Source: Hoeflea sp. IMCC20628 (GTDB lineage Bacteria; Pseudomonadota; Alphaproteobacteria; Rhizobiales; Rhizobiaceae). From it: a DNA stretch of 64,000 nucleotides. Location of the stretch: contig NZ_CP011479.1 in assembly GCF_001011155.1 (NCBI RefSeq), positions 514,501-578,500 of the forward strand, written 5' to 3'. A program made the position numbers and the translations under genes. The notes beneath the pieces were generated by a model. It searched no databases. It was not told the DNA's origin and worked only from the letters and a program-made list of their open reading frames with translations. Shown here one piece after another: positions 1 to 34,368 of this stretch; the stretch's first letter is position 1; every line of letters begins with the position of its first letter.

Positions 1-775
1 CCAGGATCAGAAGGGAGACTGGCAGCGTCTTAGTCGCATCGTTACTCATTGACAGGGCGACGGCCATGAAACCGCGTCGGTTGAGAATTCCACTCAGGGG
101 ATCGGTGATTGACTGTAGATTCAGGTCGGCGAGCAGGTCAGCTGCGATGCGCAACAGAAACAAAATGGCAAACAGCAACCAGCCAAAAAGCCCGAGGAAT
201 TTGATCGATACCACCCAAAATGAATTGACGTTAATGGAGCCAATATGCGGTGAACCTTCCAGAAAAAATGAGACGACAGGACGTGCAATCATAAGAAACG
301 TTACCGAGAACGTGGCGATGATAATGCCGAGGTCTACATTTTCCTTTTTCTTTTGCTTACGTATTGCTTGAAGTCCGACGATCAGAATCGCCGCCAAGCC
401 GACACTGGCGGCGGAACCCCGACCCATGGCACTTTGCATGACAAAACCAAACCACAGGACGGCCGCGCCGGTGACGGCGAGCATCGAAAGCAACAGCCGC
501 TCGGGCACGACTTCGTCATATCTCAGACACATTCCCCTGACGAAAAACCAGCCACTTAACGGTAGCAAAAGGTTGAAGCCAATCCACAGCGGTATACTCG
601 GAACCATAATATTGAGAAATTCGGACCCGAACCCTAAACTCGCTGCCGCATATCCCCAAGCCCAGTTCAAAATGTATCTTTGATGCGGCTGTTGTTTCCA
701 AATTAGGAAAAAAACTAGAAAGAAAGTGAGTGCGGTGATCGGATTGATCATAGTAAGCAAAATCGTCGAGTCCAT
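1..775 (-). CDS. Membrane-anchored GGDEF (diguanylate cyclase) protein, C-terminus beyond the window
   Basis: Reading leftward from an ATG at 775-773, the frame stays open for 258 codons to the window edge. The first about 200 residues are a hydrophobic region with roughly six membrane segments. After a short linker comes ITDPLSGILNRRGF, the usual opening of a GGDEF domain, followed by hydrophobic LLIL, which in the family leads to D(I/V)D. The GGDEF signature itself lies outside the window, so cyclase activity cannot be judged. In the family this domain makes cyclic di-GMP from two GTP at the inner face of the membrane, under control of the N-terminal sensor. No close neighbour shares its transcript. 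The domain call is firm; the signal it senses is unknown. Confidence 0.8.
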   Translation of the reverse strand, partial: MDSTILLTMINPITALTFFLVFFLIWKQQPHQRYILNWAWGYAAASLGFGSEFLNIMVPSIPLWIGFNLLLPLSGWFFVRGMCLRYDEVVPERLLLSMLAVTGAAVLWFGFVMQSAMGRGSAASVGLAAILIVGLQAIRKQKKKENVDLGIIIATFSVTFLMIARPVVSFFLEGSPHIGSINVNSFWVVSIKFLGLFGWLLFAILFLLRIAADLLADLNLQSITDPLSGILNRRGFMAVALSMSNDATKTLPVSLLIL

Positions 776-929
776 GCGGAATCCCCCCCCCCTCACTTGT
801 CTCGAAAAGACCAATATCTCTAAGAGGTTAACATTATTTCAATCTGTGCGCGCAATCATTGCATGTCGCAATCGCGATGAAGGGCGCGTCTTGCAGATGC
901 CCTGCTGATGCAACAGAGGAGACTATTTT

Positions 930-1877
930 ATGGGTAATCTGGGACTCGACACCCTTGCTCGCGTGGAAGAGGTGGTTACGGATGTCTTGGCCATGGACCT
1001 TCTTCACAGCTCGCCAGATTTTTTCAGGAAGGTTGTCGAAGTCGCTGGTGAGACATCCGATCTCAGTTTGATTACTATTCGACGATCCGTTTATGACACT
1101 TCGCTTGGGGAAACTGACATTGAGTTGGTCGTCGACGGGCTAAAGGGGAAATGCGGCATCCTGATCGAGAACAAGATACGAGCTCCACTTATGGATCGCC
1201 AGTTCGAGCGTTACCATATGCGCGGTGAAGCAGGTATTCAGAATGGTCAATGGAGCCGATTTCGGGTGCTGTTGATGTCCCCACAGAGTTATTACGAGGC
1301 ACTTGGGGCGGAGCACTCCACTTATATAGACGCAAACCTTTCCTATGAAGAGATTGTCGAATTCCTCGGCGGTTATCCCGAATTCGTTTTCAAGCGGCAT
1401 GTTTTTGAAAGTGCCATTAGCGACTACCGCAAGGGTTACGTTAAGTCGCCCGATGTAGCCATGATGGACTTCTACCATCACTACTGGACGGTCGCGTCGA
1501 CGGAATTTCCGCAACTTCGCATGCTGAAGCCAGATGTGGTGGGCAGGGACGGAACTTGGATTTACTTCCCTTCTTTATACGCAGGCAACAGTGTCCGTCT
1601 TATCCACAAGTTCAAGGGAATCGGATGCGAACTCGCGGTTACTACGCGAAATGCCGAGCAGCTCGCGGAATTGCTTGCCCCCTTCCTTGAATCTGACATG
1701 GTCGTCCGTCCAACGAAGTCAACAGCGTTCATCAACGTGAAGACGCCCGCTATCAATCATATTCTAGATTTCGCGACGTTGAGAGCCGATATTGTTCTCA
1801 GCCTTGAGACGTTGGATCGCTTGAGATCGTTCGCAATGAACGAACAAGTAAGGCGAGGTATCATGGCCGTTTTGTAG
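930..1877 (+). CDS. PD-(D/E)XK nuclease superfamily protein
   Basis: A 315-residue protein whose N-terminal third has the core of a PD-(D/E)XK nuclease: D63 in the strand ETDIEL, then E80-N-K82 in the strand GILIENKI, followed by an R/Q/Y helix (DRQFERY). These residues usually bind Mg2+ and cut DNA. Stand-alone proteins of this type often have unassigned biological roles, sometimes in defence or DNA repair; the substrate here is unknown. The start is an ATG after the purine-rich GAGGAGACT. No methylase or partner subunit is adjacent. The gene faces the HUH-like gene at 1956-3164 tail to tail and sits in the accessory part of the window. The fold assignment rests on motif reading only. Confidence 0.6.
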   Translation: MGNLGLDTLARVEEVVTDVLAMDLLHSSPDFFRKVVEVAGETSDLSLITIRRSVYDTSLGETDIELVVDGLKGKCGILIENKIRAPLMDRQFERYHMRGEAGIQNGQWSRFRVLLMSPQSYYEALGAEHSTYIDANLSYEEIVEFLGGYPEFVFKRHVFESAISDYRKGYVKSPDVAMMDFYHHYWTVASTEFPQLRMLKPDVVGRDGTWIYFPSLYAGNSVRLIHKFKGIGCELAVTTRNAEQLAELLAPFLESDMVVRPTKSTAFINVKTPAINHILDFATLRADIVLSLETLDRLRSFAMNEQVRRGIMAVL

Positions 1878-1955
1878 TGCAAAATTTTTGTATTACTTGG
1901 TGCCGAATTAGATGAATTTGGCGGTGTCTTTAGGTGTGTCTTTTTGAGTGTTGTG

Positions 1956-3164
1956 TCACTGACGCCATCTTTTCAATTCACGAATTACCGCTGCCAAACT
2001 CGGAGAGTGTTGCAGACTCAAAATAGCTTTCCGCTGTTTACTGATGCCCAGTTCGATTCTGCATTTTCCACTTGCCGTCATGTGACTGATTTTGGACCAA
2101 AAAGTAGAAAGCCCTTCATATATTCGCACAGTGCTTCTCTGGATGGCCTCAAAGGCATTCAACGGGGGGCTCTTGGCCTGTTCTCGATTCGGAGAGTCCT
2201 GAGTTGTGCCGATAGTCGCTGAAGTATACTCCTCTGCCGCCTCCACTGTGTCGGCAAAACAAGATGCTTCAGCTGTGGGACGTATTTCGAACAACATGGC
2301 CGCAACCTTTTTCCCTCCATAGCGAACCATGACCTTGGACAGCAGCCTGTCGCCTGTTTCGACTGTCGGGCGGCTATATGCGGTTTCTTGGCGGTTCTTC
2401 TTGAGTTTTGCCTTGTCGATAGCTTTGGCCATCTTCTCGGGGGCGGACCGCCTACAGGCCTTCCACTTCGCAAAAGCTCCGCCTGTCCTAATAAGCCTGA
2501 AACGGTGTTGTGTGAGGCTCCAGGCGGCTTCCAACGCATGGTCTGGCCATGAGAGCATGATTTCATTCCGCCATATGCCCCACAACGAGTAAGTGGCGAC
2601 CGCTGCAGCATTGCGGATTGGTCTGGTATTGAGGTCCGTTTTTGAGAATTTGACCAAAAGTCTGCGATGTACCGCCTCTCGATGTTCGCTAGGAACCCGA
2701 CAGACGAAATGGGCATGAAGGTCGAATAGGCCAGACTCAAGATCGAATCTTGGGTGAATCGCAATCAAGAGCAATTCGAAAGAGTGCTTTTTCCGAAGCT
2801 CACTAAATTCGATATTGATTCTCGCATTAAAGGTTTTCATGGCTGATACTAATTCGTCAGCTGAGGCCTTCGCGCCTGTCAGCCCGATGCCCCAAAACAT
2901 GCAGTTTTTAAGGCCGTACTCGGCAGCAAATTCGGTGAAATCGGTGACAATAGGAACATTTCTGCGGATCGCTTCATGTCCAAAGAAGCGCGATCCACGA
3001 AGAGGGCGGCCCAAGTCGATGATTTGCCCTGGCGCATCTTGGAGCAGAACTAGGTAACGTTCGTGTTCAGAAACATGGACATCCACGCCGAGGGATTCGA
3101 GCCGCTTTCCCAGTTCCTTCGCATAGTGGAGTGGACTGGCCCTCTCGTTTGCCGACGCAGTCAT
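1956..3164 (-). CDS. Possible HUH/Rep-type endonuclease, full-length copy
   Basis: A 402-residue protein I cannot match to a named family with certainty. A strand (CMFWGIGLTG, about 88-97) is followed by a helical stretch, then LLLIAIHPRF and LFDLHAHFVCRV with an H150-A-H152 pair. This order of strand, helix, strand and HxH resembles HUH endonucleases of rolling-circle Rep proteins and some transposases. A possible catalytic Tyr (Y192) follows about 40 residues later. The C-terminal half is basic with no recognised domain. A second, truncated copy lies at 10413-11154, colinear without indels and keeping the HAH pair. Upstream sequence is also shared, including a hairpin, which suggests the gene and its 5' region move as a unit. 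The HUH assignment is an inference. Confidence 0.5.
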   Translation of the reverse strand: MTASANERASPLHYAKELGKRLESLGVDVHVSEHERYLVLLQDAPGQIIDLGRPLRGSRFFGHEAIRRNVPIVTDFTEFAAEYGLKNCMFWGIGLTGAKASADELVSAMKTFNARINIEFSELRKKHSFELLLIAIHPRFDLESGLFDLHAHFVCRVPSEHREAVHRRLLVKFSKTDLNTRPIRNAAAVATYSLWGIWRNEIMLSWPDHALEAAWSLTQHRFRLIRTGGAFAKWKACRRSAPEKMAKAIDKAKLKKNRQETAYSRPTVETGDRLLSKVMVRYGGKKVAAMLFEIRPTAEASCFADTVEAAEEYTSATIGTTQDSPNREQAKSPPLNAFEAIQRSTVRIYEGLSTFWSKISHMTASGKCRIELGISKQRKAILSLQHSPSLAAVIRELKRWRQ

Positions 3165-3289
3165 TTGACAGGCTTCGATTGCGGCCTGCGATAGTTAGGC
3201 GACGTTCGCGGGATAAAGCGAAACACCGAGAAACTCGGCATTTCAGCCTGGGGGGAATGATTGAAGCGGGCTCCCGCTACCAAAATTTC
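2423..3289 (-). repeat. Long direct repeat, copy A (HUH-like gene and upstream region)
   Basis: This 867-bp stretch aligns without gaps to 10413-11279 at a constant offset of 7990 bases. It covers the first about 247 codons of the HUH-like gene plus 125 bp of upstream DNA. The gene body has diverged moderately, but 38 bp just inside the outer end (3251-3288) are identical in both copies. Similarity stops abruptly after 3289, as expected for the end of a mobile or replicating unit. Confidence 0.8.
3265..3278 (-). promoter_or_regulatory. Conserved hairpin upstream of the HUH-like gene, copy A
   Basis: AGCGGGCTCCCGCT is a perfect inverted repeat about 100 bp upstream of the gene start and about 10 bp from the end of the shared repeat. 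The identical sequence is found at the same distance in copy B (11255-11268). Possible roles are a Rep-type recognition hairpin, an element end or a regulatory stem. Confidence 0.5.
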
Positions 3290-3829
3290 TCAATGAATTC
3301 AGTGTTTCTGTTGTCTTTGGATAATCCCGAAGGCGGCCGTCTGCTGAGTTGTACCGACTCGGTACCGAGCGGGGCGGCGGCCCGCTTTTGTGTTTTCTAA
3401 TTCAAGTCTTCGTGTTTCTGATTTCGAATTGGAGTCTTGAATTAAATCCAATGTTGGAGTTTTCGATTTTGTCGGGCCTGGCAAAATTGTGCGCGACGCC
3501 AACGCCACCCAATAACGGTAGGCGTCAGCCTTGATCGACTGTCCGCGGTAGTTTCGATAACGGTCTAAATGGGCGGAAAGCGGGCTTTCGCTGCGACTTA
3601 CATCAGTGTCGGGTTTTGGATTTTTCTGCTATCGAACCAAATCGCATTATCCTCCCATACAATATGTCGGTCGGCACTTTCCGAATGACTGCAATCCCGA
3701 TCATTCTGGACAAATAACCTTTCGCTAGAAATTCCTAAAACGCGTCATCCGTTCTTGCCATATGATGCAAATTGACCCGCCTGCCTGAATGCCGGTTGCT
3801 CAACCGAAGGTTGGCTGCAATAGTCGATA
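3290..3829. other. Intergenic region without a recognisable gene
   Basis: About 540 bp between the end of repeat copy A and the first insertion sequence. I see no convincing gene. It contains a short palindrome (CTCGGTACCGAG at 3358-3369) that runs into a GC-rich stem AGCGGG/CCCGCT at 3368-3386 followed by a T-rich tail. That could be a factor-independent terminator reading rightward, although no plus-strand gene ends here. Confidence 0.4.
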
Positions 3830-3847
3830 TGAATAGCCCCGAGTTTT

Positions 3848-4864
3848 CTAGACACCCTCTGTCTTCGTTCTCTGCTGCCGTTCGAACTCGACGGGTGACA
3901 GCATCCCGTTCCTCACATGCTTGCGCGTGGGATTGTAGAACATCTCGATGTAGTCGAACACATCCTGCCTCGCTTCGGTTCGGGTTTTGTAAGTCCGTCG
4001 TCGTATCCGCTCGCGCTTGAGCAAGTTGAAGAAGCTCTCGGCAACAGCGTTGTCGTGACAGTTGCCGCGCCGGCTCATTGAGTGCTCAAGATTATGGGCG
4101 CGCAGAAACGCAGCCCAGTCCATGCTGGTGAACTGCGAGCCCTGGTCCGAATGGATCAGCACCCTGTTCTTCGGCTTCCTTCGCCAAACGGCCATGAGCA
4201 ATGCTTGCAGGACAACATCCGTTGTCTGGCGGCTTTGCATCGACCAGCCGACGACACGGCGGGAGTAGAGATCGATAACGACGGCGAGGTAGGCGAAACC
4301 TTCTTGAGTACGGATGTAGGTGATGTCAGTGACCCAGGCCCTGTCTGGCACGTCCACGTCGAACTGCCGGTCTAGCGTGTTGTCCACCACCAATGACGGT
4401 TTGCCGCCGTAGCTGCCCGGCCTACGCTTGTAACCGATCTGCGCTGTGATGCCCGCCAGTGTGGCCAGACGTGCAACGCGGTTCGGACAGCACGTTTCGC
4501 CCTGATCCAGCAGATCATCGTGGAGTTTGCGATAGCCATAAACCTTGCCGCTGTCCTTCCATGCTTTGTGAATGAGCTCGGTCTGGCGCACGTCTTCGCG
4601 AGCCCGTTTGCTCAACGGGTGCTTCAGCCAGGCATAGAAGCCGCTAGGTTGGATGCGCAGACACCGGCACATCGCCCGCACAGAGAACAGCGGGCGATGC
4701 TCGGCCACGAACGCGTATCTCACTTTGCATCCCTGGCGAAATACGCGGTGGCTTTTTTTAGGATGTCGCGCTCCTCGATGACCCTGGTCAGTTCGCGTTT
4801 CAGCCGTCTGATCTCGGCATCTTTGTCGTCGCCGCCCGATGGCTGTGAGAACCTCTTCTTCCAC
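3848..4864 (-). CDS. IS3-family transposase OrfB (catalytic part)
   Basis: Catalytic half of the transposase of the 3830-5045 element. It contains the DDE triad in its usual settings: D in WVTDITYI, D in HSDQGSQF and E in DNAVAESFF, plus the YGYRKLH region of the HTH_21 domain. It is most likely not translated alone. A run of seven A on the minus strand (complement of 4753-4759) lies in the overlap with OrfA. A -1 shift there (CTA AAA AAA GCC to AAA AAA AGC) joins the frames into OrfAB, the active enzyme in this family. The residues listed before the shift point are therefore probably not part of the natural protein. Confidence 0.9.
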   Translation of the reverse strand: MEEEVLTAIGRRRQRCRDQTAETRTDQGHRGARHPKKSHRVFRQGCKVRYAFVAEHRPLFSVRAMCRCLRIQPSGFYAWLKHPLSKRAREDVRQTELIHKAWKDSGKVYGYRKLHDDLLDQGETCCPNRVARLATLAGITAQIGYKRRPGSYGGKPSLVVDNTLDRQFDVDVPDRAWVTDITYIRTQEGFAYLAVVIDLYSRRVVGWSMQSRQTTDVVLQALLMAVWRRKPKNRVLIHSDQGSQFTSMDWAAFLRAHNLEHSMSRRGNCHDNAVAESFFNLLKRERIRRRTYKTRTEARQDVFDYIEMFYNPTRKHVRNGMLSPVEFERQQRTKTEGV

Positions 4865-4986
4865 GCGTAGAGCGAATGCGGGCTGACGCCCAGCCGCTGT
4901 GAAACCTCCGCAACTGGATAACCGCGCTCAACGATCTGATGAACAGCATCGCGTTTAAAATCGTCACTGAATTTGGCTGTGCTCAT
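4720..4986 (-). CDS. IS3-family transposase OrfA (HTH_Tnp_1)
   Basis: 88 residues with a helix-turn-helix near residues 10-45 (KRDAVHQIVERGYPVAEVSQRLGVS is the typical start of the family) and a leucine-zipper-like helix RLKRELTRVIEERDILKKATAYF. OrfA binds the terminal repeats and regulates transposition. The frame overlaps OrfB, and the A7 slippage site lies at the codons for ILKKA. The start ATG is about 60 bp inside the right inverted repeat, with GGAGGCC upstream. Confidence 0.9.
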   Translation of the reverse strand: MSTAKFSDDFKRDAVHQIVERGYPVAEVSQRLGVSPHSLYAWKKRFSQPSGGDDKDAEIRRLKRELTRVIEERDILKKATAYFARDAK

Positions 4987-5229
4987 GATGGCCTCCTTGC
5001 CTCAAATTTAGGGAAGAAGGCGTCTACAAATCTAGGGGCTATTCAAACCGATACCAGACCATTGTCCGCTTGGCCGACTGGCCGTTGGCCTAGAAGCAGA
5101 AATAATTTCCGCTTCGCGCCCCCAATTCGGTCATTCCGGGGAAGCGGCAATCACTCAATGCTTGCCTGCGATCGCGCAACCCACGGGAGCGTTCGGCGCT
5201 CTTTAACGATATTCGTCTACTGTTATTTG

Positions 5230-5626
5230 GTGAGCAAGCTCGGACCAACACTTGACGATCTGTATGTCGAAATCGGCAGGACCCTTGTCATCTGGGGGTG
5301 GCTTGAGGGTGAAATGATCGACGCAAAGATCAACTGGCGTCAGACTCCACCTGAGGCAGCCACTGGACCATTGAGAGTCTTCCTTCTAGGGCTCGCTGAG
5401 CCTCGGGGGTATACGAAACGCTATTGCGCATGGGCTGGCGTCGTCTCATAGCGATCCATGGTCGCCTGAATTCGAGCCGTACGTCACCTGCAGGACCCTT
5501 GATGCTGACCTGAGAAAGATAACGCTTAGCGATCTGCGTCGAACACAGGTACAGCTTGAGCGCCTTCGAAAACTACTGCGGAAAATCTATGTGCTCCCTA
5601 TGCACGCCGAACCTCGCCGAACATAA
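5230..5626 (+). pseudogene. Frameshifted small hypothetical gene next to the insertion sequence
   Basis: From a GTG at 5230 the frame reads LGPTLDDLYVEIGRTLVIWGWLEG and onward to about 5400. The continuation lies one base over and runs from about 5398 to a TAA at 5624-5626. It reads GIRNAIAHGLASSH, then YVTCRTLDADLRKITLSDL, then a helical end. The two halves join to a plausible globular protein of about 130 residues; the phrase RNAIAHG is common in small bacterial proteins of unknown function. In the upstream frame a stop occurs at 5449-5451. So this is either a gene broken by a single-base shift or a sequencing error. No function is assigned. Confidence 0.5.
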
Positions 5627-5945
5627 TTAGGTGTCCCGATTGCGGTCGTCCACGATTATGGCCGGTCTTGTTAAGAGCCGGCGCTCGCTTCGGCCAGCCA
5701 CAGGTCCACAAATGGCGGTGAGCGGTAATTCGCTGCATTGCGCACCAAGGTCGGCTTTGCGGACGGATCAAACATTGGGTCGATGATCTTTTTCGCTCCC
5801 ATTTCAGTTTGACATGCTCGCATTCGCCGCCCTACTTTTTGCGGACTTCGCCGCAAGGGCAAGTCAAATGCTGCCGATCCAGCGTCGTTTTTCGGATAAG
5901 AGCGCGCCGCCCTACAATGCTGGCGCTGCTTCGTGCCGTCTCCCG
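5627..5945. other. Intergenic region without a recognisable gene
   Basis: About 320 bp between the broken gene and the end of the GGDEF-EAL gene. The short reading frames here (for example 5671-5862 on the minus strand) have no ribosome-binding site or family resemblance. No RNA gene or strong terminator was seen. Confidence 0.4.
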
Positions 5946-7877
5946 TTATCGGATATCCGCAAGAAGAGGCCTACTGGATTTAGGCCTATCACAAAGTAAA
6001 TCTATGTCTGATGCGCTTTGTGGCTTGCCGAAATGATATCCTTGAAGATTACTGCATCCGATTAAGTGAAGAATGCGTGCTTGTTCTTCTTTCTCCACCC
6101 CTTCAGCGGTCACTGCGAGAGAAAGCCCTTCTGCCAGCAATACGATTGCCTGAATTATGGATTGAGCTTTTTGATCCCCTATCAGATTATTCACTAAAGA
6201 TTTATCAATTTTAAGTCGCCTGAATTGGTATTTGCGAAGATACCCGATACTCGAATATCCCGTACCGAAATCATCCAACGCGATCGTGATGCCGACTGAC
6301 TGCAGCGCAGTGATTAACGGCTGGGCTCGGTCTTCGTTGTCAATCAGCCAGCCTTCGGTAACTTCGAGTTCCAACCGCTCGAACGGGAAACCTTCTTCGT
6401 CCAAAACTCTCAGTATATCTTCCACCAGTGTCGAACACCGAAATTGGACAGGTGACAAATTTACCGAGAGTTTCAAGTCAGGCCAGCCCAGTGCATTCCT
6501 GGCGGCGGTTCTCAAAACGTGCAGACCCAAGTCGTTTATCAATCCATATTCTTCGGCAATCGGTATGAATTCATCGGGTGGAACTGAGCTTCCATTATCT
6601 CGTGTCCAGCGACATAACGCCTCAATTCCCGTCAATTTTCGCGTTTTGGCGTCAACGATTGGTTGGTACGCGACCTCGATCCTTCCCTCACGGACAGCAA
6701 GACGCAGCTCCTCCGCTAACTCAGTTCGCAGCCGCCTATTGGACGCTAGAGCCGTGTCGTATTCGCAGGTGCGGCTTCTTCCGCTTCTCTTGGCTTCATA
6801 CATGGCGATATCTGCCTGGTGCAAAAGCTCCGTCGCGTCGACTGAAGCGTCACCAAAAGCAACACCCACGCTAAGACCGATATCAACATGGCGACCTTCT
6901 ACCTCAATCGTTTCATGCACAATCGCTAACGCACCAGTCGTTGCGGCTTTTGCCTTGCTGTGTAGGTGCTCGCCCGAAATAACCATCGCGAACTCGTCGC
7001 CACCTAGACGCGCTAGTATTCCTTCGTGAGAACTGCTGATGGCTTGCAGTTCTTCCGCAACTTTCTTTAAAAGCTTGTCACCGACATCGTGTCCGAATGT
7101 GTCATTGATATTTTTGAAACCATCAATATCGAAGAGCATCACCACGATTTGATCATCCGTCGGTAGGCGACGAGATCGTTCTATGAGCAATTTGTTGAAA
7201 GCACGCCTATTATAGAGGCTTGTTAACTCGTCGGTTTCTGCACGGATTTTCATGATTCCATTCACGCGCTCTAGTCGTCGATGATAGGCAGCACGTGCAG
7301 ATTCGATCATGGATATGAAGATGAAGACGGAAATTTCCAGAGTTATTAAGCTGCTGATGTACAGAAATTCAAAGCTATGTAAATCGTACGCTCCTACCTT
7401 ATCTTTCGCAACTGAAATGTAAGTTGATAAAGACGCCACCATAACTATAAATAGCCATGCAAAACCATAGTAATAACCACTTAGAAGCACAGAAATAATG
7501 GGAATGGATACGTACCATGCCATCCCAGGCGCAAATATATTATCTATATGCGTAATCTGCCAAGTTAAAAATATGAATAGGAATGCTATATATAAATTTC
7601 CAGCAATATAGCTGCGGCCAAATATCCTGTAAATCCACAATGTAGAAATCATCGCTGCACCGCATAAGGCCATTGCAGCAGCGACAATTGGGTATCCAGA
7701 CAAGCTAAACTGGACGACGAAAATGGGGATAACGAGTATAGCGAGAATTATGACTGAAACAAATCGGCCCGTAAATTCCTGCGCGGCGCGGTTGTCTACA
7801 TGCGCGGAAGGATGCGCATAGACGGCGAGCCGCTCATGAAGACGTACTGCTGGCGTGGTGAATGCCGATATATTCAT
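5946..7877 (-). CDS. Bifunctional-type GGDEF-EAL membrane protein (c-di-GMP turnover)
   Basis: 643 residues. Five or six membrane segments span about 38-190. A GGDEF domain (about 212-375) follows with the intact signature GGDEF at 292-296 and DIDGFKNINDTFGHD upstream. I see no RxxD inhibitory site before it. The C-terminal EAL domain (about 390-640) has EAL at 419-421, NLSPVQF, ELEVTEG, DDFGTGYSS, KIDKSLV and EGVE, so all catalytic positions of a c-di-GMP phosphodiesterase are present. Both activities are therefore possible; which dominates cannot be read from sequence. The gene is monocistronic in the accessory region. It is AT-rich in the membrane part compared with the catabolic genes further right. 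Confidence 0.92.
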   Translation of the reverse strand: MNISAFTTPAVRLHERLAVYAHPSAHVDNRAAQEFTGRFVSVIILAILVIPIFVVQFSLSGYPIVAAAMALCGAAMISTLWIYRIFGRSYIAGNLYIAFLFIFLTWQITHIDNIFAPGMAWYVSIPIISVLLSGYYYGFAWLFIVMVASLSTYISVAKDKVGAYDLHSFEFLYISSLITLEISVFIFISMIESARAAYHRRLERVNGIMKIRAETDELTSLYNRRAFNKLLIERSRRLPTDDQIVVMLFDIDGFKNINDTFGHDVGDKLLKKVAEELQAISSSHEGILARLGGDEFAMVISGEHLHSKAKAATTGALAIVHETIEVEGRHVDIGLSVGVAFGDASVDATELLHQADIAMYEAKRSGRSRTCEYDTALASNRRLRTELAEELRLAVREGRIEVAYQPIVDAKTRKLTGIEALCRWTRDNGSSVPPDEFIPIAEEYGLINDLGLHVLRTAARNALGWPDLKLSVNLSPVQFRCSTLVEDILRVLDEEGFPFERLELEVTEGWLIDNEDRAQPLITALQSVGITIALDDFGTGYSSIGYLRKYQFRRLKIDKSLVNNLIGDQKAQSIIQAIVLLAEGLSLAVTAEGVEKEEQARILHLIGCSNLQGYHFGKPQSASDIDLLCDRPKSSRPLLADIR

Positions 7878-8371
7878 TCTAAGTCACATACCCGCTCAAA
7901 GTTACCAAATGAGTATGGGAATCGCGTTAACGATCCGTAATTGCAGGAGCCGAAAGCCGTTTCTTTGGATAGAGAGTGGTCGATAAAGATGACTGGACTA
8001 CAACGAATATAGCCTTCTGCACCTTCCCCCCTCCCTATTCCATTGAAAATCCCACGGTAGCGCTAAGCCAAATATTGAATTGAAAGCGGATGGAAGCTTG
8101 GCTGCGCATCGCAAAGACCCCATGACATTTCTAGAAAGAACCGATCTGTTGGCGGACGTGAATCACTTGAAGCGGACGTCCGCTGTCCGGTAGACAAAAG
8201 TCGGCAATGGGCCGGAAGTGCCACTGCGCCCAGAGCAGGTTACTGTGTGAACACTCGATGCTCGAACAAGACTGATCTATAATGCGTAGGCAAGGGTGGT
8301 GATGCAAAACCACCAGCTTGAAACGATAAGTACTCCATGCGCAAAAACTGCTACCTTTAGCGGGTGCATGC
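7878..8371. other. Intergenic region without a recognisable gene
   Basis: About 490 bp upstream of the GGDEF-EAL gene. It should hold that gene's promoter, but I cannot point to a clear -10/-35 pair. A 60-codon frame at 8131-8313 on the minus strand lacks a ribosome-binding site and resembles degenerate intergenic sequence. Confidence 0.4.
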
Positions 8372-8689
8372 TCAGACCCATTCCGGGCGTTTTTGCCATG
8401 TCATTTCAGCGCGTGCGTTGATGTGCAGATGACATTCTTGGCTCATCCGCAGGAAATCTCCTGACAGCTGGCTCTGAGACTTTTTCTCTGCCAAGCGCTT
8501 TCCATAATGCTGTAGCTTGCTGGCGCAGATTGCAATGCTGCCCACACTTGGCTCCGTACCTTTAAACCGCAGGGTACGCATGTAGCAATCGCTTCTGCCC
8601 AGCCATTCCCTGCTGAATTCGCTTTCGCTCCGAACCAAGCCATGAGTTCTCAACAGCTCGTAAATCTCGTTTAAAACCGTTTTCTGCAT
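8372..8689 (-). CDS. Small conserved hypothetical protein, similar in type to DUF6626
   Basis: 105 residues, soluble, starting at ATG 8689 with GGAGAAATTC upstream. The sequence has a helical N-terminus (LNEIYELLRTHGLV), a segment EFSREWLGRSDCYMRTL that resembles a DNA-binding helix-turn-helix, and a basic helical C-terminus. It reminds me of the short alphaproteobacterial DUF6626 proteins, found near mobile elements; that match is from memory and weak. The gene is divergent from the small gene at 8764, sharing about 75 bp of AT-rich DNA with inverted A/T motifs. It could be a small regulator of that divergent pair. Confidence 0.6.
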   Translation of the reverse strand: MQKTVLNEIYELLRTHGLVRSESEFSREWLGRSDCYMRTLRFKGTEPSVGSIAICASKLQHYGKRLAEKKSQSQLSGDFLRMSQECHLHINARAEMTWQKRPEWV

Positions 8690-8763
8690 GAATTTCTCCT
8701 TTGTTGATAAATAAACTAACGCCCAAGTATGTGGGTTTCATTGTATTTATTAACGGAGAGGCG

Positions 8764-8919
8764 ATGCGAAGAGAAAGCGATTGGCTAATACAAAAAGGGA
8801 TTAAGGAGAAAGGCAGTCGCTGGGTTGCAGAGCAAAAATTCTGGTTATTTGGCACTGCTACATATTTCGATGGAACAGACATAGGCTTTGATGAAGTCAC
8901 AGTGTCCGTCGTCAGATAA
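8764..8919 (+). CDS. Small hypothetical gene, 3' end cut by an insertion sequence
   Basis: A strong ribosome-binding site (ACGGAGAGG) precedes ATG 8764. The frame reads MRRESDWLIQKGIKEKG and onward and enters the inverted repeat of the 8903-10412 element after 46 codons, stopping at 8917-8919 inside it. The native protein was probably longer. It faces away from the 8372-8689 gene. No family is recognised, and the gene may not be functional. Confidence 0.35.
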   Translation: MRRESDWLIQKGIKEKGSRWVAEQKFWLFGTATYFDGTDIGFDEVTVSVVR

Positions 8920-8975
8920 AATGGGACATCAGAGCGGCTTGAGTATTGGAGGCTCTGGTTCGTTTGTGTGACTGA

Positions 8976-10028
8976 TTATGCCGCTTGTTTTTGATGGTGC
9001 AAGCGACGTTGGCGGATTGTCAGCTTCTTGATCTCTTTCCTTTCTCTCAAGATGGCTTTGTCGCGCCCAAAGTAGACGTCGGCGGGTGTGACGTTCTTCA
9101 AGCTCTCGTGGTAGCGCCTGTTGTTATAGTAGTCGACGAAGGCCTCGATCTGGCGTTCAAGATCGCCTGGCAGATAGTAATTTTCCAGCAGGACCCGGTT
9201 CTTCATCGTCTGATGCCATCGCTCGATCTTTCCCTGGGTTTGCGGGTGGAACGGGGCTCCACGAACGTGATCCATCTTCTTGTCCTCCAGCCATTCAGCC
9301 AAATCGCCAGAGATGTAACATGACCCGTTATCGCTGAGCAGGCGCGGTTTGTGGCGCACGACGGCCTGGTCGCAGCCCGATGCCTGAAGCGCCAGTTCAA
9401 TGGTGTCTGTCACGTCCTCGGCCCGCATGTTTGTGCAAAGCTTCCAGGCGATGATGTAGCGGCTGTAATCGTCCAGGATCGTGCTGAGGTAATACCAGCC
9501 CCACCCGATGATCTTGAAGTAGGTGAAGTCGGTCTGCCACATCTCATTGATGGCGATAGTTTTGTCTTTGAACTCATTGGCTGCCTTGATCACCACATAG
9601 GCCGGTGCGGTGATTAAATCGGCTTCCTTCAGGATACGATAAGCCGATGATTCAGAGACAAAATACCGCTTCTCATCAGTGTATTTGACTGCCAGCTCCC
9701 GGGTCGTCAGCGCCTCGTGTTCCAGCGCGAACTCAATCAGGTCATCACGCCGGTCTTGGGGGATACGGTTCCAGACCGACTTCGGCCGTGGAGACCGATC
9801 ATCCAAGGCAACAACCCCACCGTCGAGGTAAAGATCATACCATCTGTAAAAAGTGGTGCGCGGTATGCCCAGCATATCGAGGGTCTGCTTGGTTGGCAGG
9901 TGCGATCCTTCGACCGTGCGAATGATCTCAAGCTTCTCGGTCGCAGGGTATCTCATGCCTCGTCCTCCCCAGCACCTGTCATGCTTTTTTTGAGCAGGCG
10001 GTTCTCCAGGGTCAGATCGGCGACGCAT
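8976..10028 (-). CDS. IS3-family transposase OrfB
   Basis: Catalytic transposase part of the 8903-10412 element. A helix-turn-helix (TKQTLDMLGIPRTTFYRWY) is followed by an rve integrase core with D in WQTDFTYF, D in LSDNGSCY and E in QGKIERWHQ, and a basic C-terminus. The true protein is probably an OrfAB fusion made by a -1 shift on a run of seven A (complement of 9985-9991) in the 76-bp overlap with OrfA. An internal ATG (MRYPATEK) could also allow separate translation. Confidence 0.9.
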   Translation of the reverse strand: MRRRSDPGEPPAQKKHDRCWGGRGMRYPATEKLEIIRTVEGSHLPTKQTLDMLGIPRTTFYRWYDLYLDGGVVALDDRSPRPKSVWNRIPQDRRDDLIEFALEHEALTTRELAVKYTDEKRYFVSESSAYRILKEADLITAPAYVVIKAANEFKDKTIAINEMWQTDFTYFKIIGWGWYYLSTILDDYSRYIIAWKLCTNMRAEDVTDTIELALQASGCDQAVVRHKPRLLSDNGSCYISGDLAEWLEDKKMDHVRGAPFHPQTQGKIERWHQTMKNRVLLENYYLPGDLERQIEAFVDYYNNRRYHESLKNVTPADVYFGRDKAILRERKEIKKLTIRQRRLHHQKQAA

Positions 10029-10327
10029 TCCTTCAACGCCAAGGCTTCAGAGCGAAGGTCCTTTACTTCCGGCGACGTCGCTTGCCGTGCTGTGTCACCC
10101 GAGAGCCGGCGCTTGCCTGCTTCCAGGAACTCCTTCGACCAGCTGTAATACAGGCTTTCGGCGATACCTTCGCGGCGGCACAGCACCGAGATGCTTTCCT
10201 CTCCACGCAAACCCGCCAAAACGATACGGATTTTTTCCTCCGCTGAATAGGTCTGGCGGGTCTTGCGGCGGATGTTCTTGACCAGCTTGTCAGCTGCGTT
10301 CTTCGATGTTTCAGGCTTCTGTCTCAT
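9953..10327 (-). CDS. IS3-family transposase OrfA
   Basis: 124 residues from the ATG at 10327 (MRQKPETS). A longer frame starts at 10375 but lies largely in the end of the element. The protein has the HTH_Tnp_1 pattern (SAEEKIRIVLAGLRGEESI, CRREGIAESLYYSWSKEF) and a C-terminal coiled-coil (LKECVADLTLENRLLKKS) that includes the slippery A7 codons. It is the DNA-binding and regulatory half of the transposase. Confidence 0.85.
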   Translation of the reverse strand: MRQKPETSKNAADKLVKNIRRKTRQTYSAEEKIRIVLAGLRGEESISVLCRREGIAESLYYSWSKEFLEAGKRRLSGDTARQATSPEVKDLRSEALALKECVADLTLENRLLKKSMTGAGEDEA

Positions 10328-10412
10328 CTCGATCTCCCAATCGGTAAGATGAACCAGAAATCCTCCGTTGTTCAAATCCTCAAATCTGTCCCACGGGCGC
10401 TGACGTCAGACA

Positions 10413-11154
10413 CCTTGGCCAATTTTTCAGATGTGGACCGCTGGTCTGCTCGGAACTTCGCAAAGGTTCCACCTGTCCGAAAAAGCCTGAAGCGCTTCTG
10501 TGTGAGGCTCCAGGCAGCTTTTAGGGCATGGTCTGGCCATGCGAGCATGATGTCATTCTGCCATATCCCCCACAGCATATAGGTCGCTGCAGCAGCTGGA
10601 TTGCGTATCGGTCTGGTATTGAGATCGATTTTGGAGAATTTTGACATCAGGCGACGATGCGCAGCCTCCCTATGTTCAGGCGGCACACGGCAAATAACAT
10701 GTGCATGCAGGTCAAAAAGACCAGTCTCCATGTCAAATCTTGGATGGATTGTAATTAGAAGTAATTCGAAGCTGAGTTTCTTCCGAAGTTCACTGAATTC
10801 GATATTGATTTTTGTGTTGAAGGCTTTCAGGGCGATTGCAAGATCTTCGGCAGCCGCTTTTGCGCCTGTCAGGCCAACATTCCAAAACATGCAGTTCTCA
10901 AGGCCGTGTTCGGCAGAATATTCTGCAAAATCGGAGACAACGGGAGCGTTTTTTCGGATCGCTTCATGTGCGAAAATGCGTGAGGATCGCAGCGGTCTGC
11001 CCAAGTCAATAATCTCGCCTGGAGCGTCTTGGAGCAGAACTAGGTAACGTTCGTGTTCAGAAGCATGGACATCCAGGCCGAGGGCTTCGAGCCGCTTTCC
11101 AAGTTCCTTCGCATAGTGGAGCGGACTGGCCCTCTCTTTTGCTGCAGCAGTCAT
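10413..11154 (-). pseudogene. HUH/Rep-type gene copy B, truncated by an insertion sequence
   Basis: The first 247 codons of a paralogue of the 1956-3164 gene, about three quarters identical by eye and colinear without gaps. It keeps the LFDLHAHVICRV HxH motif. After the codons for EKLAK the frame enters the inverted repeat of the 8903-10412 element and ends a few codons later (stop at 10372). The C-terminal about 155 residues of the full-length copy are missing. The HxH-containing domain is entire, so a truncated domain might still be made. Start and upstream region are preserved. Confidence 0.6.
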
Positions 11155-11254
11155 TTGACAGGCTTCGATTGAGGGCGGCGGTAGTTCGGCGATCTGCGCG
11201 GGATAAAGCGAAACACCGAGAAACTTGGTATTTCAGGGTGGGGGGAATGATTGA

Positions 11255-11268
11255 AGCGGGCTCCCGCT
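11255..11268 (-). promoter_or_regulatory. Conserved hairpin upstream of the HUH-like gene, copy B
   Basis: Same AGCGGGCTCCCGCT inverted repeat as at 3265-3278, inside a 38-bp block identical between copies although the gene bodies have diverged. Higher conservation than the coding part suggests selection on the DNA or RNA structure. Confidence 0.5.
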
Positions 11269-11299
11269 ACCAAAATTTCCCCCAAATTGGGTTCATTGT

Positions 11300-12442
11300 T
11301 CATTGCCCGTATTCTCCGAGGCTGGGCGCGCCGCGGGGGGATGCCAATCTGTGTCCGTCAATCCTGATCGGGCATCGCGTCGTCGTCATTGTTGCGCCAT
11401 TGCCGGCGACGACTTCCTGCAAGGGATCGAGCGCAGCAAACCCTTCGGTCTGGCTGAATTTCGGCCAGTCCAGCACTTCCGCGCACCAGACATCGGCCGG
11501 TTCGAGGCGTGAAAGCCAGGCTCCTGTCGTCCCGCTTTCCAGAAAATCGGCAAGAATGGCCTTGATCTCGTTGCGCTTGCTGAAGGCCAGGTCCGGGTTG
11601 CGATAGGGGGCGAGGGCTTTGCACTGCAGAAGATCGGCGAGCACGGCGATCGGCGTCATCGCGATGGCGATGTGGCCATCTGCGGTTTCATAGATGCCGT
11701 AGGGTGCTGCCGCATGGACGCTGGCATTGGCAATGGCGCTGCGCGGCGGCTGCGTCCGGTCGCCATTGAAGAAGGATGTGAGTTGCTCGAACTGTGCGTC
11801 GATTGCCGAACTCATCAGGTCGACCTCGACCAGCCCACCCTTGCCGGTGACACCGCGGCGGACCAGGGCGGCGAGAATGCCCTGAACCAGATGGTTGCCC
11901 GTCGCCATGTCGAGTACGGCAAAAGACACCGGTACCGGTCCGTCGTCACGGTTTCCCGAGAGCCAGGTCAGCCCGGAAAGTGACTGGACCAGGAGATCCT
12001 GCCCCGGCTTGTCGCGCCATGGTCCCTTCTCGCCATAGCCGGTGACCGTGCCATAGACGAGGCGTGGATTGATGGCCTGCACGCTTTTGTGGTCGAGCCC
12101 GATGCGCTCCATCACGCCGGGGCGGAAATTGTGGATCATCACATCGGCCGAGACGATCAGGTCGCGCACTTTTTGCAGATCACCGGCATTTTTGAGATCA
12201 GCGGCCATGCTGCGCTTGTTGCGGTTGATGGTGTGAAACAGCAGGCTGTCACCCGCAAACATCTGGTCGGCGACCACCAGTTTGCGGCACAGATCACCGC
12301 CTTGCGGGCGCTCGACCTTGATCACTTCGGCCCCCAGATCCGCCAGTCGCAGCGCTGCCATTGGGCCGGCCAGGAACTGCGCGAAATCGAGAACCCGCAG
12401 CCCCTCCAGCGGCAGGGTCACAGGTGTGCTTGTGTCAGTCAT
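11300..12442 (-). CDS. CaiB/BaiF family (class III) CoA-transferase
   Basis: 380 residues from ATG 12442 (MTDTSTP); the frame is open further upstream but lacks a better start. Family III CoA-transferases move CoA between carboxylic acids through an aspartyl-CoA thioester; the likely Asp is in PGQDLLVQSLSG. Other family marks are GLRVLDFAQFLAGP at the N-terminus, LGAEVIKVERP, and NRNKRSMAADLK. The substrate is unknown. It is divergent from the MaoC-like gene at 12523, with a dyad between them, and has a paralogue at 23815-24954 in the same island. Such enzymes often pair with MaoC-type hydratases to activate and then hydrate or dehydrate an acid, which would fit here. Confidence 0.9.
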   Translation of the reverse strand: MTDTSTPVTLPLEGLRVLDFAQFLAGPMAALRLADLGAEVIKVERPQGGDLCRKLVVADQMFAGDSLLFHTINRNKRSMAADLKNAGDLQKVRDLIVSADVMIHNFRPGVMERIGLDHKSVQAINPRLVYGTVTGYGEKGPWRDKPGQDLLVQSLSGLTWLSGNRDDGPVPVSFAVLDMATGNHLVQGILAALVRRGVTGKGGLVEVDLMSSAIDAQFEQLTSFFNGDRTQPPRSAIANASVHAAAPYGIYETADGHIAIAMTPIAVLADLLQCKALAPYRNPDLAFSKRNEIKAILADFLESGTTGAWLSRLEPADVWCAEVLDWPKFSQTEGFAALDPLQEVVAGNGATMTTTRCPIRIDGHRLASPRGAPSLGEYGQ

Positions 12443-18628: not shown

Positions 18629-18958
18629 ATGCAGCGCATGGGAATGATGATCGGACTGAAACCGGAGAACATCGCCGAGTACAAGGCGCTGCACGCCGAT
18701 GTCTGGCCGGGGGTTCTGGCCAAGATCAGCGAATGCAACATCCGCAATTACACGATCTTTCTGCGCGAGCCGGAAAACCTGCTGTTTGGCTATTGGGAAT
18801 ATCACGGTGAGGATTTTGCCGCCGATGCCGCGAAAATGGCGGCGGATCCGGAAACCCAACGCTGGTGGGATGTCTGCATGCCGCTTCAGGCTCCACTGGA
18901 AAGCCGTGCTGACGGCGAGTGGTGGGCGATGATGGAGGATGTGTTTCACCTTGACTGA
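18629..18958 (+). CDS. RhaM-type sugar mutarotase
   Basis: 109 residues, matching the L-rhamnose mutarotase family in size and pattern: MGMMIGLKPENIAEYKALHADVWPGVL at the start, NYTIFLREPENLLFGYWEYHG in the middle and RWWDVCMPLQAPL near the end. These proteins interconvert alpha and beta anomers of 6-deoxy sugars such as L-rhamnose or L-fucose. The start has a good site (AGGAGGACATC). The last codons overlap the next gene. Its presence is the main reason to suspect a deoxyhexose as the island's substrate. Confidence 0.85.
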   Translation: MQRMGMMIGLKPENIAEYKALHADVWPGVLAKISECNIRNYTIFLREPENLLFGYWEYHGEDFAADAAKMAADPETQRWWDVCMPLQAPLESRADGEWWAMMEDVFHLD

Positions 18959-33471: not shown

Positions 33472-34368
33472 TCACAGTTCGACTAGCGCGCCACGCCTTG
33501 TGATGACCTTGGCGGCCAGAGCTGAGCCGGCCGCAATTGCCGTGTTCAGATCGGAGCAGTCCAGATAGCTCGCAAGAAATGCCGCATTGAAGCTGTCTCC
33601 CGCGGCGGTTGAGTCAACAACATTTTCGACCTTCGATGGGGTGAAACCGCTGGTCTGTCCGCCAGAGAGAGACAAGACGTCTGCGTCGCCATTCTTGACC
33701 ACAACCAGCGGCGCGCCGGCATCGGCATAGCGGCGGGCGGTATCACCCGGCGTTGCGTCGCCAAAGAAGGTTGCCTCGTCCTCGAAAGAGGGAAGCAGGA
33801 TGTCGCTGACGCTTGCGGCAGTCATTACCGTTTGCCGCGTTGTCTCTGGACTGTCCCACAGGCGCAGCCGCAAATTGGGATCAAACGCTATCGTTGCGCC
33901 ATTGCGGCGCGCTGTTGCAAGGGCGTCAAACAGCGTTGAACGGTTCTGCGGAGACAAAATCGCCAGCGTGATCCCGGACAGGTAGATCAGGCTGGCGGTT
34001 GAAAGCGCAGCCTCCAGAAATGCAGGATCATTGGCCAGTCTGCGGGCCGCTGAATCCGAGCGCCAGTAGGCAAAACTGCGTTCGCCATTATCGAGCTGAA
34101 TAAGGTAGAGGCCGACAGTGCAACCCGGCAGTCTTTGAACGAATTCTGTCTCGATCCCGGCATCGCGGATAAAATCGGTCATACGCTCAGATACCGCATC
34201 GTCGCCGACCGCAGTGAGATAGGCAACTTCCCATTCCGGCTTCAATATTTGCCGCGCATACCAGGCCGTGTTGAGCGTGTCACCGGCAAAGCCGAGGCTA
34301 TAGTCGCCGTCGGCCGTGGGCGCCATTTCGACCATGCATTCGCCTATCGAAAGAAACCGCTGCGTCAT
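33472..34368 (-). CDS. kdgK: 2-keto-3-deoxygluconate kinase (PfkB family)
   Basis: 298 residues. It has the PfkB start FLSIGECMVEMAP, GFAGDTLNTAWYAR, YLSGITLAIL and the catalytic end VDSTAAGDSFNAAFL, in which the Asp acts as base and AAGD forms the anion hole. The N-terminal pattern GECMVE(M/L) is typical of KdgK. It phosphorylates KDG to KDPG, the last step from the hexuronates degraded by the plus-strand genes to 43964. The stop of this gene precedes a hairpin. The start overlaps the end of the GntR gene by four bases. KDPG aldolase is not in the window. Confidence 0.9.
   Translation of the reverse strand: MTQRFLSIGECMVEMAPTADGDYSLGFAGDTLNTAWYARQILKPEWEVAYLTAVGDDAVSERMTDFIRDAGIETEFVQRLPGCTVGLYLIQLDNGERSFAYWRSDSAARRLANDPAFLEAALSTASLIYLSGITLAILSPQNRSTLFDALATARRNGATIAFDPNLRLRLWDSPETTRQTVMTAASVSDILLPSFEDEATFFGDATPGDTARRYADAGAPLVVVKNGDADVLSLSGGQTSGFTPSKVENVVDSTAAGDSFNAAFLASYLDCSDLNTAIAAGSALAAKVITRRGALVEL

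Follow-up and report, generated by a model that had tools for sequence, protein, structure and literature searches.

A rare HUH-like gene behind the integrases of tRNA-borne islands, with a predicted attachment site at its conserved hairpin

Why should two copies of an unrecognised gene lie close together in one Hoeflea genome, each next to the same hairpin? The window, by which we mean the whole 64,000-nucleotide stretch of Hoeflea sp. IMCC20628 that was analysed (contig NZ_CP011479.1, positions 514,501 to 578,500), contains two such copies. The original prediction took them for self-mobilising units of an HUH nuclease with a hairpin at their end. The repeat that it described held up, as positions 10413-11279 align without a gap to 2423-3289 over 867 bp, of which 678 are identical (78.2%; 79.4% by BLAST over the inner 825 bp). 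Similarity is lost sharply 11 bp beyond the hairpin, close to the 10 bp or so first given. Around the hairpin there is indeed an identical block, which measures 41 bp (3249-3289) rather than 38 bp. The features of the repeat are as follows.

1956..3164, minus strand: HUH-like gene, copy 1, encoding 402 amino acids, with HAH at residues 150-152 and a tyrosine at residue 192
10413..11154, minus strand: HUH-like gene, copy 2, cut by an IS; the open frame continues to 10372 (10372-11154)
3265..3278, no strand: hairpin AGCGGGCTCCCGCT, centre of an attP dyad (palindrome search and joined island ends)
3266..3282, plus strand: attR1, in which 3271-3282 (CTCCCGCTACCA) is the 3' end of tRNA-Met(CAT)
11256..11272, plus strand: attR2, the same 17 bp as attR1

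Copy 2 is truncated by the end of the IS at about 10412, and the other genomic copies of this IS end near the same base. Within the window, AGCGGGCTCCCGCT occurs exactly only at 3265-3278 and 11255-11268. Allowing up to three mismatches gave 15 matches where 11.5 are expected, so these loose copies carry no meaning. Further palindromes, of the AGCGGAC/GTCCGCT type, lie between genes at 8171-8184 and 3579-3592; their number is within chance.

The hairpin and the tRNA-Met islands

Both attR1 (3266-3282) and attR2 (11256-11272) read GCGGGCTCCCGCTACCA, 17 bases whose last part is the 3' end of tRNA-Met(CAT). An intact tRNA-Met(CAT) is encoded on the plus strand 3.2 kb left of the window (C1:511228-511304, or window -3272..-3196), and TCNCTCTCCCGCTACCA, searched for with up to two mismatches, occurs once in this genome, inside the complete tRNA-Met. 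The place and orientation of this tRNA are those predicted for the intact end of an island integrated at a tRNA, which supports the attachment-site reading. We rejected the hairpin as an HUH or REP-like repeat on account of the tRNA match. The hairpin is thus not an HUH end but the attR of islands that sit in tRNA-Met(CAT), and its palindrome is where the attP dyad of a large serine recombinase (LSR) has its centre. This dyad has 17 of 25 pairs, centred between AGCGGGC and TCCCGCT, in both joins of island ends that we made, one for window island 1 and one for a related island in Hoeflea sp. BRH_c9 (L008).

As part of the overall explanation given below, and with the same degree of confidence, we consider it likely that two integrative islands, now decayed, lie in tandem in the 3' end of a single tRNA-Met(CAT) gene, and that each copy marks the right-hand end of one of them. 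Their contents in the window are listed here.

1..3282, no strand: part of island 1 inside the window; the island is about 6.5 kb long and begins after the tRNA, outside the window on its left
930..1877, plus strand: island 1 cargo with a weak PD-(D/E)XK nuclease match (22.0 bits, just below the Pfam value of 22.3)
3283..11272, no strand: island 2 (tandem, decayed, 7990 bp), ending in copy 2 and attR2
About 3830-5047 and 8901-10412: transposase genes/IS of island 2
5946-7877: GGDEF/EAL-like ORF of island 2, assigned by eye
8372-8689: DUF6626 ORF of island 2

Starting from the tRNA, island 1 consists of the 3' part of an LSR gene oriented towards the tRNA, an IS and a convergent small serine resolvase, all three left of the window, followed by a GGDEF-like gene, the PD-(D/E)XK-like gene, the HUH-like gene and attR1. 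The LSR fragment is 52% identical to the C-terminal part of the L008 LSR. No integrase was seen in island 2 when its ORF list was inspected by eye. Past attR2, the flank at 11273-11300 (AAATTTCCCCCAAATTGGG) resembles the LSR left arm that follows the tRNA in the L008 contig (CTAATCCCCCCAAATTGGG), and is perhaps the trace of a third island.

In related genomes, the upstream side of the tRNA matches that of the window while the downstream side mostly differs, which marks this tRNA-Met(CAT) as a busy integration hotspot. The 17-bp tRNA 3' end is present in 18/18 genomes of the genus (tRNA-Met(CAT) loci L066 and L070-L088) and occurs twice in two of them; in G1016, its sole copy is not preceded by tRNA sequence. 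An exact empty twin of the window's integration site was not found among the related genomes, and the CoA-transferase gene sits elsewhere in G1019 and G1023. Prophage-like genes together with a similar DNA methylase-like ORF were observed at the tRNA-Met site of G1011 (L064) and beside the L010 island of Mycoplana, so the same site is used by phage and island.

Related islands and the order of integrase and gene

Relatives came from a scan of genome contigs, which yielded seven loci from 126 candidate stretches. There are nine close copies, namely the two in the window and L008-L014, where L010, L003 and L015 are one and the same place and L010 stops at its contig end. All nine lie in tRNA islands, several of which carry relaxases and defence cargo. 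Both ends of the 25-kb island L008, from the same genus as the window genome, are on one contig (attR at 9117, tRNA-Met end at 34144), with the HUH-like gene at 9235, a MobA/VirD2-type relaxase, and a 550-residue LSR at the other end that contains PF00239, PF07508 and PF13408 (Resolvase, Recombinase and zinc-ribbon). This LSR ends in the tRNA at 34144, its final codons being written in the tRNA. L009, L013 and L014 (18.8, 6.5 and 16.0 kb) have a different tRNA-Met (3' end CCTCCGGGCCCACCA) at the far end and the HUH-like gene at the opposite end; here, a tyrosine integrase gene stops 8 nt short of the tRNA. Yet another arrangement occurs in L011 (tRNA-Gln) and L012 (tRNA-Ser), where tRNA, tyrosine integrase and HUH-like gene follow in a row, the last two overlapping by 4 nt in L011 and separated by 75 nt in L012. 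The attR of L011 is at 18813, and that of L012 was not found within the stretch examined. Both ends, with an integrase and direct-repeat tRNA attachment sites, were found in island 1 of the window, L008, L009, L011, L013 and L014.

Three further observations concern the layout of these islands. A broken second HUH-like gene inside L008 (15461-16496) suggests fused or nested islands. The attR of the tRNA-Gln island (L011 18801-18826) also forms a hairpin (GCTGGGGC...GCCCCAGC), made of tRNA end and element arm. Just outside the attachment site, L010 (9751-9825) and L014 (9711-9821), from two unrelated genomes, carry TTCCGGAATTTTGACA-like repeat units that are 83% alike over 75 bp and 94% over 33 bp.

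The borders of these islands bear directly on the reading of the protein as an HUH transposase, with the hairpin as the cleaved end of its element. Such an element would account for the HAH/Tyr signature of the protein and for a hairpin at a sharp border beside the gene. However, every island that could be delimited borders on a tRNA 3' end, and an LSR or tyrosine integrase gene stands beside the other end or beside the HUH-like gene. No HUH-cleaved terminal hairpin bounds every copy: in L009, L013 and L014 the border has the end of a different tRNA and lacks such a hairpin, and in L011 and L012 the gene lies away from the border altogether. As the attL/attR pairs also contradict it, we regard this reading as very improbable. 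What survives of the self-mobilising unit is that the unit is mobile and that the hairpin marks an end, whereas the hairpin consists of a tRNA 3' end and an integrase attachment-site arm. It does not always border the gene, and the attachment sites assign mobility to the LSR or tyrosine integrase rather than to the HUH-like protein. Caution is warranted in similar cases, since an integrase attachment site can present itself as a conserved hairpin next to an HUH-like gene.

The islands share a gene order. In the excised circle, the HUH-like gene lies behind the integrase and on the same strand in 7/7 islands with a readable integrase (of nine copies), a count that takes in island 1 of the window through its LSR fragment. 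The distance between the two genes in the circle is 141-146 nt in L009, L013 and L014. For the LSR type, we joined the two island ends in a script and then read the frame, which stays open across the junction in L008 and likewise when either window arm is used. The integrated LSR ends in VAG-EGLEPPTRGL and the circular form in VAG plus 36 residues (ARFNHSPHLEIPRFSVFRFIPRTSPNYRRPSSTPIK in L008), meaning that circularization swaps the last 10 residues of the integrase for a 36-residue tail. The stop codon of this tail shares bases with the HUH-like gene's start codon, giving GTGA in L008 and ATGA with both window arms.

3161..3280, minus strand: right arm of island 1, last LSR codons in the circle (VAG + 36-residue tail), with TGA overlapping ATG
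11151..11270, minus strand: right arm of island 2, integrase tail

Frame, length and stop/start overlap are the same in the L010 arm. Rather than being plain non-coding DNA, the block between hairpin and start codon holds a conserved reading frame, that of an integrase tail. Substitutions between arms, counted by codon position in three pairs, were 2/1/9, 4/3/13 and, more weakly, 10/10/18; the one-sided binomial values for the excess at third positions are 0.004, 0.004 and 0.05, for pairs that are not independent. Because the changes fall on third codon positions, these 120 bp are coding and selected in the circular state. An unintegrated counterpart is Rhizobium phage RR1-A, with a related LSR (36% identity) whose gene ends ...GGRVVAGERFEQSPQIILGRFVA. 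The DNA at this end is TGGTAGCGGGAG between TTGGGGGG and CCCCCCA arms, which places the attP inside the 3' end of the phage's own LSR gene, with core and arms like the plan of the joined island ends. The inner palindrome of RR1-A is poorer than the island one, showing that the hairpin need not be perfect. In archaeal SSV-type integrases, attP also lies inside the integrase gene. Searches of viral contigs with the LSR and with the tail gave no matches.

The protein and the conserved site inside its gene

We are fairly confident that the 402-residue protein is HUH-like, and this part of the original prediction outlives the proposed transposase with its cleaved hairpin end. HAH, an HxH metal motif, and Tyr192 downstream of it are invariant in 9/9 close sequences and in L018, a relative with 23% identity in another family of the order (G286 has a broken remnant). 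There is also a C-terminal RxxxxRxGGxF-like block. In a comparison with eight Rep_1 proteins (PF01446), HUH fell on HUH with an E-value of 0.013 over the full length and 0.0013 over the core, and the Rep_1 profile score was 28.3, versus 13.0-15.7 for five unrelated island families and 16.3 for the reversed profile. With hhalign, the probability was 18%, and 1/150 shuffles scored as high (an outlier at 131); A4 without L018 gave an E-value of 0.28. The protein weakly resembles Rep_1 in that the HUH motif follows a similar strand and loop in the same register and precedes an R...GxF block. Unlike a Rep_1 member, it falls below any family threshold, with no significant match to the Rep_1 profile or to any other in Pfam, and its tyrosine region is unaligned with the Rep_1 tyrosine in hhalign.

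Searches of Pfam, NCBIfam, PHROGs, PADLOC and PDB sequences with the protein family gave no convincing score. Among plasmids, neither the window protein (at 1e-5) nor L018 (at 0.01) had a match, and we did not believe five Phaeobacter plasmid records hit by the L012 protein at E-values of 0.3-0.9. Phages gave no match up to an E-value of 1, and the one locus found among viral contigs coincides with L010. With the window genome counted each time, the gene occurs in 3/247 genomes of the family (one spurious), 3/397 of the order, 1/385 of the class and 2/398 of the phylum; a match in G191 (56 residues, 31%, two stops) was taken as spurious. A literature search, mostly outside subscription papers, found no title or abstract on this family or on such a change of integrase tail. 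The protein represents a rare family without a name and is probably of replication type.

Alternatively, the protein might not be an HUH enzyme but a partner of the integrase made together with it, such as a directionality factor or a regulator. A gene placed strictly behind the integrase, although the integrases are of three unrelated kinds, would fit such a role, as would the lack of a family match. Yet HAH and Tyr are invariant, the C-terminal block is present and the Rep_1 profile score exceeds those of the unrelated island families. Moreover, a directionality factor is expected to match its own type of integrase, while this family is common to LSR and tyrosine systems. We hold this to be improbable, and prefer an HUH-like protein of replication type.

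A conserved site lies within the gene itself.

2193..2228, minus strand: nucleotide-conserved site TAT(A/T)CTTCAGCG...ACTCAG, candidate origin or recombination site

In this 12-codon block, the same codon is used at 94% of the positions where the residue agrees, versus 38% over the gene. A block that strong arose in 0/5000 column shuffles with six sequences and 0/2000 with eight; in a three-sequence subset the site is not significant (670/5000). The core TAT(A/T)CTTCAGCG, with up to one mismatch, is at the homologous place in eight of the scanned gene copies and remnants (copy 1 of the window, the L008 remnant and L009-L014), and the main L008 copy is more diverged. A shared fold of the site was not seen across the sequences. 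It might serve as origin, as oriT or in recombination. The origin of phage phiX174 lies inside its own initiator gene.

PF03432 relaxases score above the cut-off in L008 and L011 and just under it in L012, a remnant is found in L013, and none was seen in the ORF list of island 1 of the window; L009, L010 and L014 were read in part. Were the HUH-like protein to act as an accessory relaxase or mobilization nickase instead of initiating replication, its oriT would be the internal site. This would suit islands that need conjugation helpers and an island 1 without another relaxase, and Rep-like relaxases are common in Firmicutes IMEs, according to a part of PMC5704250. It is at odds with the separate MobA/VirD2-type relaxases encoded in L008, L011 and L012 and the remnant in L013, which leave no need for the HUH-like gene as sole nickase. 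We consider this unlikely, though less so than an integrase partner, and favour a replication initiator.

A resolvase accompanies most copies. A small serine recombinase, 79-86% identical to that of the window island, lies convergently behind 7/9 copies at a distance of 16 nt to 7.8 kb; L012 has only a distant one (41%). As a resolvase match at an E-value of 1e-50 is found in just 6/101 genomes of the family, the link to the HUH-like gene is not background. The island resolvases did not come out as a single clade apart from the background ones, the tree needing two changes. Phage defence cargo includes Drt6 and a type IIG restriction-methylation enzyme in L008, and Avs2 in L011.

A proposed mechanism and its relation to known systems

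The explanation that we find likely overall is that the window holds decayed tRNA-Met islands, that the hairpin is their attR, and that the gene encodes a new HUH-like, Rep-type family, which would travel behind integrases in mobilizable islands with varied tRNA-directed integrases. In the LSR type, the integrase frame of the circle runs through attP, gains its 36-residue tail and ends on the HUH-like start codon, so that integration splits an operon that excision restores. The sequences themselves show integration at tRNAs, an attP within the integrase gene or immediately behind it in the types that border the attachment site, the restored gene order, the tail and the overlap, as well as the accompanying resolvase and the conserved internal site; the activities that follow are inferred. 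Transcription from the integrase promoter would then reach the HUH-like gene only after excision. The protein would nick the DNA and start rolling-circle replication of the excised circle, with the internal site as its origin, and the convergent resolvase would resolve multimers. Our best reading of the protein is hence a rolling-circle-type initiator linked to excision. Such gating cannot be universal, as integrase and gene adjoin in L011 and L012 without excision. More tentatively, and with somewhat less than even confidence, we propose a two-way switch, in which integration leaves the integrase with a short tail encoded by the tRNA and separates it from the HUH initiator, and excision adds the conserved 36-residue tail and couples translation, the circle being replicated from an origin inside the initiator gene. 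The adjacency would have been kept while the integrase was exchanged between LSR and tyrosine types.

What stands out is that a family without a name in the databases is found directly behind integrases of different kinds in every readable island. Should it prove to be an initiator, gene order would link replication to excision, and the C-terminus of the integrase would distinguish the two states. Replication genes are known in some IMEs, and the upkeep of excised IMEs is called an "unexplored world" in a section of one review (PMC5704250). Like proteobacterial IMEs, including those of Mesorhizobium, the present islands combine tRNA integration, a relaxase without visible transfer machinery and cargo (parts of PMC5704250 and PMC8627217). 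They differ from Mesorhizobium, for which the relevant part of PMC8627217 describes MOBF/MOBQ IMEs and Rep_3 genes on ICEs, not the present protein.

A parallel in organisation is offered by the pSAM2-type AICEs, in which the HUH initiator RepSA shares an operon with the integrase (and xis) and integration is at a tRNA 3' end, as set out in part of PMC3218068. The islands share this initiator-integrase operon and tRNA 3'-end integration, the initiator here being HUH-like from its sequence. Unlike AICEs, which have an FtsK-like Tra, they carry MobA/VirD2-like relaxases, no common sequence family was found between the two, and in the type whose gene borders the attachment site, this site divides the operon. 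In Tn916, transfer and replication genes are driven by a promoter that circularization places ahead of them (PMC11658703, in part); in the present islands, by contrast, the gene moves behind the integrase itself, coupled in the LSR type by overlapping stop and start codons. Mycobacteriophage BPs has attP inside a gene, and integration alters the C-terminus of the protein, which is the repressor in BPs (PMC4557955, in part) and the integrase in the present islands. The RR1-A integrase is a related LSR whose 3' end contains an attP core of the tRNA-Met type together with arms, but its tail is a different one (16 residues after VAG), and no HUH-like gene lies behind it.
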